From: Cercospora beticola
Lineage: Eukaryota > Ascomycota > Dothideomycetes > Mycosphaerellales > Mycosphaerellaceae
NCBI RefSeq assembly: GCF_033473495.1
Contig: NC_088938.1
Location: forward strand, 62,001-126,000
Length of the DNA stretch: 64,000 bases
Direction of reading: 5' to 3'
Shown here: positions 8,809 through 31,395 of the stretch, one piece after another
How positions within the stretch are numbered: the stretch's first letter is position 1
Layout of the letters: each line of letters starts with the position of its first letter
Program-made: the position numbers and the translations under genes
Notes under the pieces: model-generated
Told to the model about the DNA's origin: nothing
The model's database searches: none
Seen by the model: only the letters and a program-made list of their open reading frames with translations

Positions 8809-9735
8809 CTAACTTTCCCACTTCCTCGTCTCCCTGAATCTCAAAGTAACTGGCTTGGCTGGACAATTCGTCAGCCCTAGATCACTCAACACCGGCCCCT
8901 TCAGGTCCCCTTTTGCAGCCTCAACACGGTCGAACCTCTGCAACAATCTCACAATAACGTAGCCAGCCTCAGTCAGCGCTAGCTGCTGCCCAATAAATCT
9001 CTTCGCCCCACCACTGAAGGGCAGAAACTCCCAACCAGGTCTCCTCCCCACGAATCGTTCTGGTCAAAGTCATCTGCACCTTCTACCCATAGGTCCTTCC
9101 TCCTATGCAGAACATGAGTTGAGAAGTCAACTTGTGCTCCGGCCGGTACGAAAACGGGTGACTTGCCATCCGGACCTCCGCCACAAGGGAGCGTAGTGTC
9201 TTCATTCGCCGTTCGAGAATTGATTGTCACAAGCGACCACAGACGGAGAGCTTCGTTGAGGGTATATTGCAAGTATTGGCAACCTTTGAGCTTTGAAAGC
9301 TGATGTCCTTTGGACTCTCGTAGGTGCCAAAGGTGTCGAGCACAACAGAGCTAAGTTTCTCGTAGACTTGCGGTTTACGAAGCATTTCGTGAAAGACCCA
9401 AGAGAGTAGTGATGCAGTAGTATCACGACCAGCGAGAAGGATGTTGAGCATTCGAGCGCGTATTTCAACGGGATTGCTGGTCTGTTTCGCAAGGGCTTGA
9501 AGAAAGACACACTTCTCCTTCTCGTGAGTTTTCGATTCCAAGGCTGAGATCCTCGCGAGCGCCATGTCGACATGATGCTTAGCAAAGTCATTGAATTCGT
9601 CATATACATTCGGGGGCGCCGAAGGGCGAAGGGAAACCAAAGGTACACATTGCTGTTTACAGTCAACGGACATACCCTGCTCGGCGTTCCCCGAATGCAT
9701 AAGTCAGACTGTAGATGAGTGATCCTTCTTGGCAT
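8809..9735 (-). pseudogene. CYP52-like cytochrome P450 remnant
   Basis: Pieces of a CYP52-type P450 (alkane/fatty-acid hydroxylase family) occur in three frames. The first piece (to about 9300) has the I-helix LLAGRDTTASLLSW and WVFHEMLRKPQVYEKL. The second has YTLNEALRLW, INSRTANEDTTLPCGGGPDG and DFSTHVLHRRKDLW. The third (8809-9055) has [21 protein letters not shown]. Frames change within a short A-run near 9293-9299 and again near 9056-9066, each fitting loss of one base. The codon at the heme-ligand position (8995-8997) is TTT, so the obligatory Cys is Phe. The N-terminal half is missing or unrecognisable; traces may reach about 9900. With two frameshifts and no heme ligand it cannot be a working P450. 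Confidence 0.85.
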
Positions 9736-24194: not shown

Positions 24195-25191
24195 TCACTC
24201 CCTGCTTTCACCTTCAAAGAACACCATTGCTCGGAGCTCAATACTCGCTCGTCCAGGACACAAATTCTCGGGTACTTGTGGGTCCTTCACAGAGCCGTGA
24301 GCGACTCGTCTCGCTCTCCCATCAACTTTGCTGTCGAAAGTCTTGAAGATGATGACATCTTCTGTACCCATCTCAGAGCGATAAAAGAAGCGATGCCATG
24401 GGCTATAGCGAAGATAATGCGTGGAGCGTCGTGGGTTGCGCGGGTTCTGCGACACGAATGTGAGAGGAATCTCGTCGACGTCCGGTACCAGAGTGCAGGC
24501 ATCGAGAAGTGCGAGGTGTGAGTTCAATACTGGTCGGAGTGGCCGCCATACGTTGACGTGCATCTCGCGCACGTTCATATGCGAGAGACGGCGGGTCGTT
24601 TTGTAGTATTGGGCGAGCGTCTGAGCGAATGCTATCGAGCTGTCTGTCATCATTGTCACATGTCAGTCGACGAAAAGACTGTACAGCCTTGGACGACTTT
24701 TGAATTGAAGAGACAGCTCGCATACCAAGATGGAATTCAGGAACCGGACCTGGGTGGCAGCCTTCCCTGCGGACGAAGTGATTGAAGATGGTAACATGCG
24801 AGGCCTTCAACCTGTGAGAATGATCAGCTCACGTCCAACTATAGACGCACCAAGCATAACAACGAGAGACCAACACCTCACGAAGGAACTTCTCCATCTC
24901 AGGGATATAGATCGTTTCAATCTTGAGCTCGTCTTCGAAGTCTTGCTCAGCAGCCATGCTGCTGAGATGCTTGTACCATTGGAAACCGCATCTGTCAAGC
25001 GAGAAATGCGACTCATTCCCGGCGACATCATAGACCATAGCCTGGCGTGGATCGAAAGGGAATCGCTGTTTGTCGAGCTCATCGGAGAAGACGAGAAAGT
25101 CTTCGTCGGCTTCACTCAACACTCGGGTATATCCAATAGCGGTGTAAAGATCTCGTGTGGTAGGATGCTGGTCTGTATCCGGGAACGACAT
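24195..25191 (-). CDS. CmcJ/asaB-type hydroxylase/desaturase-like protein
   Basis: Family: non-heme iron/2-oxoglutarate oxygenase relatives (CmcJ, AsaB, 'GA4 desaturase-like') common in fungal secondary-metabolite loci. Proposed exons are 25191-24877, 24804-24726 and 24643-24195, giving 280 residues. Visible family blocks are YDVAGNESHFSLDRCGFQW with YKHLSS, then FEDELKIETIYIPEMEKFL, HVTIFNHFVRR, EFHLDSS across the second intron, HVNVWRPLRPV, LALLDACTLVPDVD, PWHRFFYRSEM, IIFKTFDSKVDG and SIELRAMVFFEG. The second intron (donor GTATGCG, phase 1) restores the HxD-like pair and is firm. The first join is less sure. The family's first 30-60 residues are not evident, so the true start may lie in an upstream exon, or the gene may be truncated. 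Confidence 0.7.
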
Positions 25192-26380
25192 ATCCACCTA
25201 CACAGATTGCGCCAAGTGTGCGACGGCATCGTTGCTCCAAAGCATCAGCTCAAGGTCGACCGTTCCTCCGGCTTTGCTGGATCCCCTTCGACCGGCAGGC
25301 TAAAACGGTATCGTCGGTGTCGAAATGCCGCTTTCCTGCATGCTTTGCTCATATGAGTGTCGTCCGGACAAGAAAAAAGGAGTGGGCTCCGAGGTGCAGT
25401 GTGTATGAATGGGAAGGGAACATGTACCAGCCTCCAATTATACTGTATACAAAACCCCTGCCTGCATTCGAGTGTGGTAGTCGGGACCCTCAAGCTTTGT
25501 AAGCTTCGCGATCATGCTTGCAGAAGCTTATCTTAAATCACATTCGTCACATAGGGCTTCTTTTGAGCTAGAGTTGAGAAGAGCAGAGGAGCGTTTCGTC
25601 GTATCCAGCCAAGTGACGAACATGTTGGTCGAATCCCCCTCGGGCTCCTTTACTCTTGTTGTCTACAACAATCCGGCTCGGTTTGGCGACCTAGTCCTTC
25701 ACGTGAGTCAAAGGAGGGTATTACTCTCGGCTAAAGTGGCAATTCTCTACAGTCTGTCATCTGCATACGCGGATTCAAGGAATATAAGCTCAAGGTCCTT
25801 TCGGGGCTCTCCTGCCAAAAGGCTGCCTTGAATCGGCTACTGAAAAGGTCGCAAATGCCCAAAATTCGAGATATACCCTACTACCCGTTCCCCGTATGCA
25901 GGCGACGGATTGTAGAGTGAGAAGTCCAGACAACATTGAGAAGTTTCGATACATCGGACACGAACTCCTGGCAAGCCGTGAGAGCCTGAGACCTTGTCGG
26001 CCGCTCTCCCCTTGCCTTTGAATGAAACCATAGAGTTTGTAATCCAAGCCATGATGACAACAGTACACCTCAACTTATGCACCAACATGGCACAGACAAT
26101 GCCCTGCTCATAGGAATCTAGCTGGCATTTGGAGCTGACATCGTATAAATCGTCAGGCGAATACGGGGACCCGATGTGTCTATGCTCAGGAATTAGCAGT
26201 GCATCTATCATACGGGGCCGGATTGTATCAACCTACTTGATGAGCCCTATGGAGCTTTTCAAAGGCGTTCTGCTGGTAGTCTTCGAACGATTGTACTACT
26301 GTTCTGAGAGTCTGCCATACCCTTGGTCATGCACGACGGCTTATTCTAGTCCCCGCTAGACCCTTCAAGCCTTGACTAGG
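25192..26380. other. Intergenic, low-confidence short frames only
   Basis: ATG-initiated frames at 25514-25831 (+, 105 aa) and 25837-26211 (-, 124 aa) have no recognised domain, signal peptide or splice support. I would not call either a gene without transcripts. Confidence 0.3.
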
Positions 26381-27545: not shown

Positions 27546-29090
27546 ATGACGACTCCCACGTTTTGGAACACGATCGAGACTCTAGTCAGTCCTGTACCAC
27601 CAGTGGTTCTGGAGGCCGAGCAACAATGTAAGAAGGGGGAACTGGTGATTGTAGGAACAGGCATCGCGAGCGTTCGTCAGATGACCATTGAGGTAATAAC
27701 CGTTCTTCCCAATCAACAAAATAGCATTAATGCTAATGCCGTGAAAAGGCCTTGGACTACATCATGCAGGCGGACATGGTCTTCTACTTGGTTCTGGATC
27801 TGGCTACCGAAGCTTTCATCCAAGCTCATGCCAAGAAGAGCGAGAATCTCCATCAATACTACGGCACGGAGAAGCCCCGCATCAGAACATACACTCAGAT
27901 GGCCGAAGTCATGCTGAACAGCGTTCGCGGCGGAAAGCTTACCGTTGGCGTAATGTACGGCCACCCCGGTGTCTTTGTCAATCCCTCGCATCGGGCAATT
28001 GACATTGCACGGCACGAAGGCTACGAGGCGAAGATGCTCCCCGGTGTGTCAGCCGAAGACTGTTTGTATGCCGATCTAGGGATAGATCCGAGCACCACTG
28101 GATGCTCCATGTTCGAAGCCACATTTCTGCTCTTTGAGAAGGACAGGTACGTGAAACACAGATGGTGGACACCTAAAGATCATTGACATCGCCTGTCACA
28201 GGATCGACACCCGCAATCACTTGATCATCTGGCAACCAGGTGCTATTGGAAAGAGTGCAATGATCTTCGACAATGAACATGTTCATAAGGTAGGTGACAA
28301 TAATTTCAGCACTGTTGCGAGTCCTACTGATGTTGTGAAGCTGGCCGACTATCTGGAGCCACTCTACGGTCCAGATTTTCCCGTGTTCTCCTACGTCGCA
28401 GCTATGCGGCCTCTCGAGAAGTTCAAGCTTGAGAAGATCACCATCAAGGACCTGCGGGACAATGCAGTCATCAAGCGTATTGGACTGAACCCATGCACGA
28501 CTTTCTATCTTCCACCGAAAACGCTCCCACCGATCAATCGTGGAAAAGGATCACCGTGGGAAGGCACTTTGCCACGCGTTACGGAGGCTAAGAACGACGA
28601 GTTGCCTACCGCCCAAGCTCTGCTGCGCACTTCGGCGTACCGCATGAGCCACCCTGAGATGTCAGTGGCGCCACTGTATACCAAAAGAGAACTGGAAGCT
28701 TGCGAGGAGCTCAAGAATTTTGTGCCGCCGGAAAGCGAGAAGCCGTTGAGTGCATCTCCAGCGCTTCGACGTGTCGCTATGAAAGTGGCTCTCCTGCATC
28801 ACCGCTTCCAGCGGCTGGATAGGGATCAGATCGCCGAGATAGCAGCATCCGACCCCGATCTCACCAAGGACGAACGTGAGAGGCTCCTTCATTACGTGGA
28901 GAACATCGAGTCCATCCTGAAAGGAACTCCCTTCTCGCGTATCCCACCCCTGCCAGTGCCATCCGTCAACACGTTCGCCCAGGCGGAAGACGTCGTTGAT
29001 GAGGTTGCTGATATATTTGAGGCGGTCATTGAGGAGAACGAACACCATGTCACCGGGAAGGGCTTGCAGCTTGTTGCATTGGTTCGTTAG
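27546..29090 (+). CDS. Borosin-type peptide alpha-N-methyltransferase with C-terminal clasp and tail
   Basis: Three exons, 27546-27692, 27749-28146 and 28202-29090, giving 477 residues. The methyltransferase half is the tetrapyrrole-methylase fold used by borosins such as OphMA, whose enzyme methylates backbone amides of its own C-terminus. Visible blocks are LVIVGTGIASVRQMTIE (33-49), the catalytic loop YYGTEKPRIRTYTQM (86-100, with Tyr86, Arg93 and Tyr97 where the family keeps its active-site Tyr/Arg), VMYGHPGVFVNPSHRA (117-132), KMLPGVSAEDCLYADLGIDP and VFSYVAAMRPLEK. A helical clasp-like region follows, with DPDLTKDERERLLHYVENI, as in borosin clasps. The protein ends EEN-EHHVTGKGLQLVALVR, a short hydrophobic tail in the core-peptide position. 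Introns are 56 and 55 bp with GTAATA and GTACGT donors. Plain SAM-dependent tetrapyrrole methylases are the main alternative, but they lack the clasp and this catalytic loop. Confidence 0.85.
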
Positions 29091-29339: not shown

Positions 29340-31395
29340 TCACACGTGCCTTTCTTTGATGATGTCGGATGCTTTCTCGGCGATTGCATATACCTGAGAG
29401 CACAGATTGAACATCTGTCAGTGGAATGGACAAACAGCATTGGAAACCGATCAACGTACGGTATGAAGCAGTCGTGCGGCTGGCAAGAGCGGAATGATGC
29501 TCGCGTCAACCACACACAAATTCTCAACTCCGAACACTTTCAGGTCGGGCCCCACAACGCCACCCAGCTCGAGAGGCATCATCGAGCATCCGCCACTCTC
29601 GTGTGAACACGAAGGCATCAGCATCTTATGCCTGCTCAAAGCTTTAATGATATCCCTCGGACTGGTAGCGTCGGGCCCAGGACGCAACTCCTCCGGTTGA
29701 AACTCATTAAAGACCTTTGGAGATCGGAACAGTTCACGCGTCAGATTGACGATTGCGCTGACGAGAATCTCATCCGTCGGGTTTGCAAGTGTGTTGTACT
29801 GTACTAGGGGTCCAAGATCCGGATCGCTGGTGTTCAGAAGGACTGTGCCTCGAGAGAACGGCTTCTGTAATAGATTGATGAAACTCTCAGACCACCCTTT
29901 GAAAGCAAGTTCGTAAAATCCACTCTGAGATGATGCAAATTGTTTCTGAAGGACTCGCAGCTGGGCAACGTACCCATGTCGGGAAGTTGCTGTGTACACC
30001 TTTGGCAGATAACTCAGATGATACTCTGTTGGAATTGTCTGGAGCATGCTCAAGGCACTGACTGAAGCTTGAGAGAGCGAAAGCGAGGCCACCAAGTCGC
30101 CGATCGCTACAGTCAGTGGGCCCGTTCGATTCGAATCGTACAGCTGCTTAGCTTCGCTGTACAATGTGGTATTGTGTAGAAGGTCAGTCCATCGAGGACC
30201 TTTGAAGCCGGGCAGATTCCATAACCATTGTATGGTTGGTGTGTCCTGCAAGTTCATGCCCACTCCAGGTAGGTCGTGCACGACAGGGATCTGTTTAGAC
30301 TCAGTATTGTCAGAACAGTGAACGGAATTTCCAACTGACTTTAGCTTCCTTGAGAACATGATGCGGGCCCACTCCGGAGATCTGCAGCAAATTTGGGCTA
30401 AAGATTGGTCCAGCAGCGAGGACGACTTCCCGCGAGGCTTTGATATGTCTCCAAGGAGCGTCAGTTGCAGACCGGTCTCTGATCATCACACCAGTGGCAA
30501 TACGATTCTCGAAAGTGATCGATAGCACTTTCGTGCCGGGCATCAGCTTGAGATTGGTCCTATGCGCGACAGGATCGTAGTAGGCAGTTCTGGCTGAGCT
30601 TCGGGTTTGAGTACCCGGGTTTTGTGTACTAGGAGTCCATCCAATGCCGACCGAAGAGCCATCATTGATGTCCTCGACAGCTGGAATGATGTGTCCCAGG
30701 TTTGTCCAAGCGTCATGAAACACTTCTTCCTGCGGCCATCTCCACGCGGGGAAACTGCTGTGCACTGGTCCGCTTGATCCCCATACCGAAGAGTTCCATG
30801 TCCTGCCAGTTGTAGGAGCGTCCTTGGGTGGCGTGAAGTTGGAGCTCTTGATGAAGTATCTATCACACGACAAAGTCAGCAGAGTCCTCGTTCAGGAACG
30901 AGACCGATGGGCGTACGGCAAAAGATCATCCCATCCCCAGCCAGGGTTGCCCAAATCCCTCCACGCATCATAGTCGGCTCTAGAACCCCGGTTGAAGAGC
31001 ATTCCTGAAACAACGCTACCACCTCCCACTGTTGCACCAATGCCTATAGGCAACATCAGGCCATCTAGCTTGTCGATTGGCGCCGTAGGAAATGTATAAT
31101 ACAAGCGCTGCACGTTGGGATCATGCTGCATTGCATTAAGGGAGTAAAAGTTCCTCGTCTGAGGGACGTTGATGGTGATGTTATCCTCCAGAGAGCCGTA
31201 CTCGATAACGAGTACTGTATGATTTGGATTCTCCGAAAGACGATTGGCAACCACGAGACCTGCAGTCCCGCCACCGATGATGACAAAGTCGTAAGTCTCT
31301 CCATGCTTGGCGCTATATGCCGGCTTCGCAGACTGCACTACACAACTGCCGCAGCAATAGAGAGCCAGACACAATTCAATGAACACTCTGTACAT
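29340..31395 (-). CDS. Secreted GMC (glucose-methanol-choline) oxidoreductase
   Basis: FAD-dependent alcohol/aryl-alcohol/choline-type oxidase or dehydrogenase. Four exons, 31395-30917, 30859-30340, 30290-29460 and 29393-29340 (introns 57, 49 and 66 bp), give 627 residues. MYRVFIELCLALYCCGSCVV is a signal peptide. Family blocks are DFVIIGGGTAGLVVANRLSE (Rossmann FAD site), GATVGGGSVVSGMLFNRGSR with YDAW, SREVVLAAGPIFSPNLLQIS with GVG, LPGVGMNLQDTP, the catalytic-region HESGGCSMMP and NLCVVDASIIPLLPA, and the C-terminal exon YAIAEKASDIIKERH. The last 54-bp exon is confirmed by the family's usual ending. The frame is open for 138 codons upstream of the chosen ATG, to another ATG at 31809, but the signal peptide argues for 31395. 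It faces the borosin-type gene tail to tail. Confidence 0.9.

Follow-up and report, generated by a model that had tools for sequence, protein, structure and literature searches.

Introduction

Does a predicted methyltransferase of the plant-pathogenic ascomycete Cercospora beticola methylate its own C-terminal tail and, if so, what kind of peptide would result? The gene that raises this question lies at positions 27546 to 29090 of a 64,000-nucleotide stretch of DNA (contig NC_088938.1, positions 62,001 to 126,000 of the forward strand), which is called the window here. An earlier note, made from the sequence letters, had proposed a borosin-type enzyme with a clasp-like block and a short hydrophobic tail, and had treated the ascomycete host as a surprise. 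The fungus is a member of the Mycosphaerellaceae. Backbone N-methylation contributes to the stability and membrane permeability of peptides, and borosins represent the ribosomal route to it. We propose, with a probability of roughly 0.6, that the gene encodes a precursor that methylates itself and has an acidic, type-III-like core, and that its product would be oxidatively tailored and freed by a protease other than prolyl oligopeptidase.

Gene model, borosin membership and active site

The stretch 27546-29090 is not one open frame: between a start codon at exactly 27546 and a stop codon at 29088-29090 lie three short GT-AG introns (27693-27748, 28147-28201 and 28290-28340). Enumeration of splice sites, confined to short stretches around candidate junctions, yielded eight combinations that keep the frame open, and the chosen model of 460 residues is identical letter for letter to a deposited 'unnamed protein product [Cercospora beticola]' (P0001), which rules out a frame or splice artefact. 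The three methyltransferase motifs quoted in the earlier note are all found in the predicted protein, as is the DPDLTKDERERL block. Its features are:

27546..29090, + strand: borosin gene, exons 27546-27692, 27749-28146, 28202-28289 and 28341-29090, 460 amino acids (aa)
27633..28523, introns included, + strand: alpha-N-methyltransferase domain of TP_methylase fold, residues ~30-272, from PF00590 and OphMA/dbOphMA matches
27851..27892, + strand: substrate/catalytic block, residues 84-97, with H84 (OphMA Y63), Y87 (Y66), R93 (R72) and Y97 (Y76)
28524..28922, + strand: clasp domain, residues ~273-405, with the DPDLTKDERERL block, from phmmer matches to OphMA/dbOphMA and a clasp-alone model
28989..29030, + strand: proposed core DVVDEVADIFEAVI, residues 428-441, common to P0002 and P0005 and, via P0002, to P0141
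29031..29087, + strand: C-terminal follower-like stretch, residues 442-460, ending in VALVR; V[AS]LVR ending common to P0002 and P0005

Residues 1-29 (27546-27632) form an N-terminal helix. Its motif, [ST][VIF]W..[IF][DEA].L, occurs in six of the 213 proteins fetched for comparison, all six within the seven-row group of the window protein described below.

That the protein is a fused borosin alpha-N-methyltransferase/precursor is practically certain. By sequence, its best solved relatives are dbOphMA (E 5.1e-84), OphMA (6.6e-79) and MroMA (~4e-73); the split borosin SonM matches at E 5e-41 and the next kind, a cobalt-precorrin enzyme, at 6e-4. Altogether, 2811 proteins among 7996 candidates scored were found at E <= 0.001. 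The phmmer alignment to OphMA/dbOphMA extends through residue 393, and when the clasp was modelled alone, borosins made up the top 23 of the 50 matches listed, aligned mainly over the OphMA clasp, so that a clasp/BBD domain is present within the same chain as the methyltransferase. Pfam returns TP_methylase (PF00590) only (72.7 bits against a cut-off of 27.8, residues 33-238), a fold family that the protein has in common with ordinary tetrapyrrole and diphthine methylases. We nevertheless rule out a siroheme- or cobalamin-type enzyme, and regard any ordinary tetrapyrrole or diphthine methylase as hardly conceivable: of the eight NCBIfam models with a hit at E <= 1, each scores far below its cut-off (YabN 35.5 of 525, CysG 24.7 of 400), and clasp, sequence matches, tree and predicted structure contradict it. 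Furthermore, the genome has other genes that match TP_methylase: one strongly, with a frame of 579 aa, and a second, separate one. We take these to be MET1 and diphthine synthase.

In a tree of 69 rows (P0143, P0161 and P0188 included; P0090 and P0097 left out for their long branches, and a piece of L002 left out because its longest frame was not the methylase frame), the window protein falls among borosins and not with cobalamin/siroheme-type methylases. It is paired with P0002 (support 98/82) in a group of seven Mycosphaerellaceae-type rows (100/100), probably all from this family, within a clade of ten ascomycete-type rows (99/96). Ascomycete borosins do not form a single clade, since the Dactylella, Penicillium and Viridothelium rows are placed elsewhere. 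The single outgroup row was a trimmed MET1-like gene of the same genome with its branch at the length limit, hence the tree gives grouping and not the root. Among the compared proteins, P0008 (eukprot, 768 residues) appears by eye to contain two borosin methyltransferase-like halves in tandem.

The literature is cited here and below from excerpts of the papers concerned. Two papers assign borosins to Basidiomycota or Agaricomycetes (PMC12048977, PMC11353741), no borosin turned up when four fungi, of which three are named as ascomycetes, were screened (PMC9258550), and genome mining in 2019 reportedly brought to light 50 novel putative gene clusters (PMC9233826); no characterised ascomycete borosin is named in these excerpts. 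A search for borosin together with the host genera gave the word borosin in none of the ten matches listed out of 204. Databases, however, already hold ascomycete relatives, from Pseudocercospora, Fulvia, Xylariaceae, Nemania, Whalleya, Dactylella, Penicillium and Viridothelium. The window borosin is therefore a variant within known borosins and not a new kind.

The predicted structure, modelled as a single chain, is confident in the methyltransferase part, with a predicted local distance difference test score (pLDDT) of at least 88 in 20 of the 24 ten-residue blocks of residues 31-270. In an alignment of 67 borosins, OphMA Y66, R72, Y76, Y98 and Q172 correspond to Y87, R93, Y97, Y119 and Q193, and these five are invariant across all of the rows having a letter there (64 for the first three). 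In OphMA, the variants R72A, R72K, Y76F, Y98A and Y98F showed no methylation on purification, while Y63F, Y66F and Q172A lowered methylation and did not abolish it (PMC6108569). Two observations count against our proposal at this level: the whole chain superposes poorly on OphMA (root-mean-square deviation 15.6-19.8 Å; TM score on the query 0.43-0.46), and OphMA Y63 is replaced by H84, in a column with Tyr in 34 and His in 5 of the 67 rows. As the residues needed in OphMA are kept, and as Y63F lowers OphMA activity without abolishing it, methyltransferase activity is expected from the sequence.

The same replacement would suit a relic, whose frame is intact and whose activity or expression has been lost. 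The setting would suit it as well: the window belongs to contig C4 of a 36-Mb, ten-contig genome, C4 starts with ~30 CCCTAA repeats, and the borosin gene is subtelomeric, ~89.5 kb from the telomere repeat. Yet we consider decay very improbable, given four exons free of stops, the retained essential residues, a tail motif common to relatives and an identical deposited protein located on a contig of 4,126,018 bases, compared with 4,172,263 bases here.

The tail and its candidate core

Which part of the chain would be methylated? Approximately 55 residues follow the clasp, and the description of a short hydrophobic tail applies to the last residues, LQLVALVR, and not to the tail as a whole. Its most hydrophobic 12-mer, which falls in this C-terminal region, ranks 46th among 56 fungal-type rows (11 of the 67 rows were set aside as bacterial-type by our own judgement). 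The conserved part, residues 428-441 (DVVDEVADIFEAVI), carries acidic residues among hydrophobic ones, spaced one to four apart within 428-442; a plain hydrophobic core is absent from the tail. Its counterparts are DVVEVADLFEAII in P0002 and ADEVDDIFEAVI in P0005; the tail of P0001 scores 86 against P0005 and 65 against P0002, and none of 500 shuffles reached either value. Compared with P0005, the tail is 54.5% identical (24/44) and the clasp 42.2% (54/128); the corresponding values are 43.2% and 49.6% for P0002, and 13% and 33% for the paralogue on contig C2 (see below). The motif begins 39 residues after the clasp landmark E389, the OphMA core 41 residues after it, and the eight rows measured span 28 to 60.

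By position and conservation, residues 428-441 thus form a candidate core, and by analogy with characterised borosins the tail is probably self-methylated within the acidic motif. KchMA methylates mainly A, V and L and some D (PMC11395268, from which the definitions of borosin types are also taken), OphMA acts on Glu with low efficiency, and Asp is among the residues methylated by homologues (PMC8251615).

A similar motif recurs further away. P0002 and P0141 (VTIDVVEVADLFEAII and VQIDVVEIADVIEAII) score 57, with a shuffle mean of 20.9 and a maximum of 39. P0141 stands in another borosin clade, together with P0158 and Coprinopsis, and the motif would therefore be either an old core that was kept or the result of convergence. 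The tails of the borosins P0141 (Logan) and P0158 (JGI), DVVEIADVIEAII and DVLVIEAIDLILV, possibly represent an acidic core type outside the ascomycete clade. A different arrangement was seen in P0122 from Astraeus odoratus, a borosin that ends in seven tandem near-copies of SFDEKAVLLQ and looks like a multi-core precursor.

Several results speak against an acidic core of this kind. P0001 and P0141 score only 40, a value reached by 2 of 500 shuffles, and P0002 gives 40-41 with the ends of unrelated proteins; since the comparison took in all 213 fetched proteins, P0141 is linked via P0002 only. The type III borosin AboMA modifies uncharged residues only (PMC11395268). The conformation of the tail is unsure: the full model has a helix at 424-444 (pLDDT ~55-72), while the clasp-alone model gives pLDDT <50, one five-residue helix and two short strands.

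This helix is central to another explanation, namely that the protein has the borosin fold but has ceased to methylate its own tail. The acidic stretch would then be a binding helix, and the enzyme would act on a separate peptide or on the C2 paralogue's tail, as in split borosins. The amphipathic helix of the full model, the low hydrophobicity rank, the existence of split borosins (PMC11395268) and a second borosin with another tail in the genome agree with it. Nevertheless, the motif is common to three proteins, its post-clasp position fits that of the OphMA core (39 versus 41 residues), no activity of OphMA in trans had been identified according to the excerpt of PMC8251615, and the clasp-alone model does not bear the helix out. 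A helix is also compatible with a core, because in one mutant structure the unmethylated SonA core is helical in its bound form (PMC8429565). Taken together, we judge loss of the tail as substrate to be unlikely.

Even less probable is a core formed by the hydrophobic C-terminus GLQLVALVR with the acidic stretch as a mere linker. The most hydrophobic 12-mer of the tail is located there, and OphMA methylates one residue of its own C-terminal recognition sequence (PMC7878506). But P0002 and P0005 share just V[AS]LVR in this region, the acidic motif being the longer conserved part, and the relatives Pseudocercospora musae and P. eumusae of the same seven-row group place a clear, classical hydrophobic stretch (VSVIVFALLII) upstream of a charged end.

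Neighbouring genes and the second borosin locus

With the acidic stretch as the preferred core, we turn to the enzymes that might act on a released peptide. Two oxidising enzyme families are encoded beside the window borosin and also near a second borosin gene of the same genome, at C2:2423836-2425426 (L019; CB0940_05746 = P0006), which has a different tail. The genes concerned are:

29340..31395, - strand: GMC oxidoreductase gene (PF00732/PF05199; exon model), converging on the borosin gene, 250 bp away
24195..25197, - strand: CmcJ/NvfI-family oxidoreductase gene (NCBIfam NF041278), exons approximate, 2.3 kb upstream of the borosin start
C2:2414964-2417048: GMC oxidoreductase (L018) near the second borosin
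L019:187-4171: ABC transporter adjoining the second borosin P0006
C2:2425936-2426801: CmcJ/NvfI-family gene near the second borosin

The window GMC gene has 16 open models, of which the six shortest encode 621-628 aa; the stop codon was placed by reading the sequence. Its C-terminal exon has 15 matches in the own genome, counting itself, and after itself the C2 gene ranks closest (58%; next 41%; searched in one direction, from the window gene toward the genome); all three exon blocks of the two genes align at 55-57%. For NF041278 (cut-off 80), the part of the window CmcJ/NvfI-family gene at 24195-24659 scores 103 bits and that at 24829-25197 scores 38 bits. For both families to occur near one random place in the genome, p is ~7e-5 (32 GMC and 21 NvfI-like genes after merging matches), a post hoc description and not a test, as families and distances were chosen after sight and the GMC pair may reflect co-duplication. 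We consider the GMC oxidoreductase a likely member of the borosin pathway; for the NvfI-like enzyme the odds appear slightly below even. Three findings reduce the weight of the shared neighbourhood: the main piece of the C2 NvfI-like gene reaches 69 bits, below the cut-off of 80; the 16 matches to the 154-aa exon of the window gene do not include this C2 gene, so that the two are apparently related as family members only; and C8:301412-306638 holds a GMC/NvfI pair with no TP_methylase match nearer than ~48 kb. An ABC transporter like that at C2 had no match in the window (frames of at least 40 aa, E <= 1e-3). At 9227-9700 (- strand), a short 157-aa frame, read without introns, matches part of the cytochrome P450 family.

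Prolyl oligopeptidase (PF02897, Peptidase_S9_N) was looked for in the genome exon by exon and had no hit at E <= 0.001, the search being aimed at this family and not at other S9 peptidases, KEX2 or general proteases. Of 14 control genomes put through the same search, 5 gave matches. For the omphalotin pathway, it has been proposed that OphMA is cut within the clasp by a host protease yet to be identified, while OphP closes the ring (PMC12235650). The absence therefore argues against an omphalotin-type ring closure and not against release.

Proposed pathway and significance

How might the product be formed? By analogy with OphMA, two chains would interlock through their clasps, and each methyltransferase would methylate backbone amides of the partner's tail, mainly on V, A, I and F between the acidic residues of 428-441. 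The peptide, with core boundaries as proposed above, would be freed by another protease and then oxidised by the neighbouring GMC oxidoreductase and CmcJ/NvfI-family oxygenase. A more far-reaching version appears doubtful to us: a separate ascomycete borosin branch, with a borosin/GMC/CmcJ-NvfI cluster free of prolyl oligopeptidase that was duplicated with swapped cores, might make an acidic amphiphilic N-methylated peptide, its DVVxEVADxFEAVI-like core recurring in a distant clade and kept for a common target.

If our proposal is true, a plant-pathogenic ascomycete with two borosins of different tails, the same classes of oxidising enzymes and no such peptidase found would point towards a second pathway logic. 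It would offer a testable source of acidic N-methylated peptides and may yield an undescribed kind of modified peptide. It also points to a rule for genome mining: according to one survey, antiSMASH requires that a peptidase accompany the methylase gene and may overlook clusters that lack it (PMC12048977).

Comparison with known systems

In the excerpts cited, mushrooms or related basidiomycetes are the source of the characterised fungal products (omphalotins, lentinulins, dendrothelins, gymnopeptides), and the omphalotin group combines a hydrophobic core with a prolyl oligopeptidase. Like OphMA and dbOphMA, the precursors of omphalotin and dendrothelin, the window protein would unite methyltransferase, clasp and C-terminal substrate in one chain, with the same active-site residues and ~40 residues from clasp landmark to core. 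It differs in a proposed core that is acidic instead of hydrophobic, in an extra N-terminal helix and, at genome level, from the omphalotin-type cluster in that no prolyl oligopeptidase was detected. Mushroom clusters contain prolyl oligopeptidase, monooxygenases and O-acyltransferases (PMC7878506), whereas the window has GMC and CmcJ/NvfI-family neighbours.

In the split borosin SonM/SonA, the methyltransferase domain is alike (E 5e-41), but enzyme and precursor are separate proteins (PMC8429565). The paralogue CB0940_05746 (P0006) and P0007 from Fulvia fulva belong to the same family, with 65-66% identity in the methyltransferase domain and the same N-terminal motif. The P0006 locus has the same two neighbour enzyme families; its protein differs in the tail (3/23 identical, with IVPPIVTQLNII), and an ABC transporter lies next door. 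For the type III borosins AboMA and KchMA, compared by description only, the core is said to alternate between acidic and other residues and is part of the same chain as the enzyme (PMC11395268), an arrangement that the window tail may resemble. The window tail, in contrast, has one short motif, and its protein groups with other ascomycete-type rows, some of which have hydrophobic tails.
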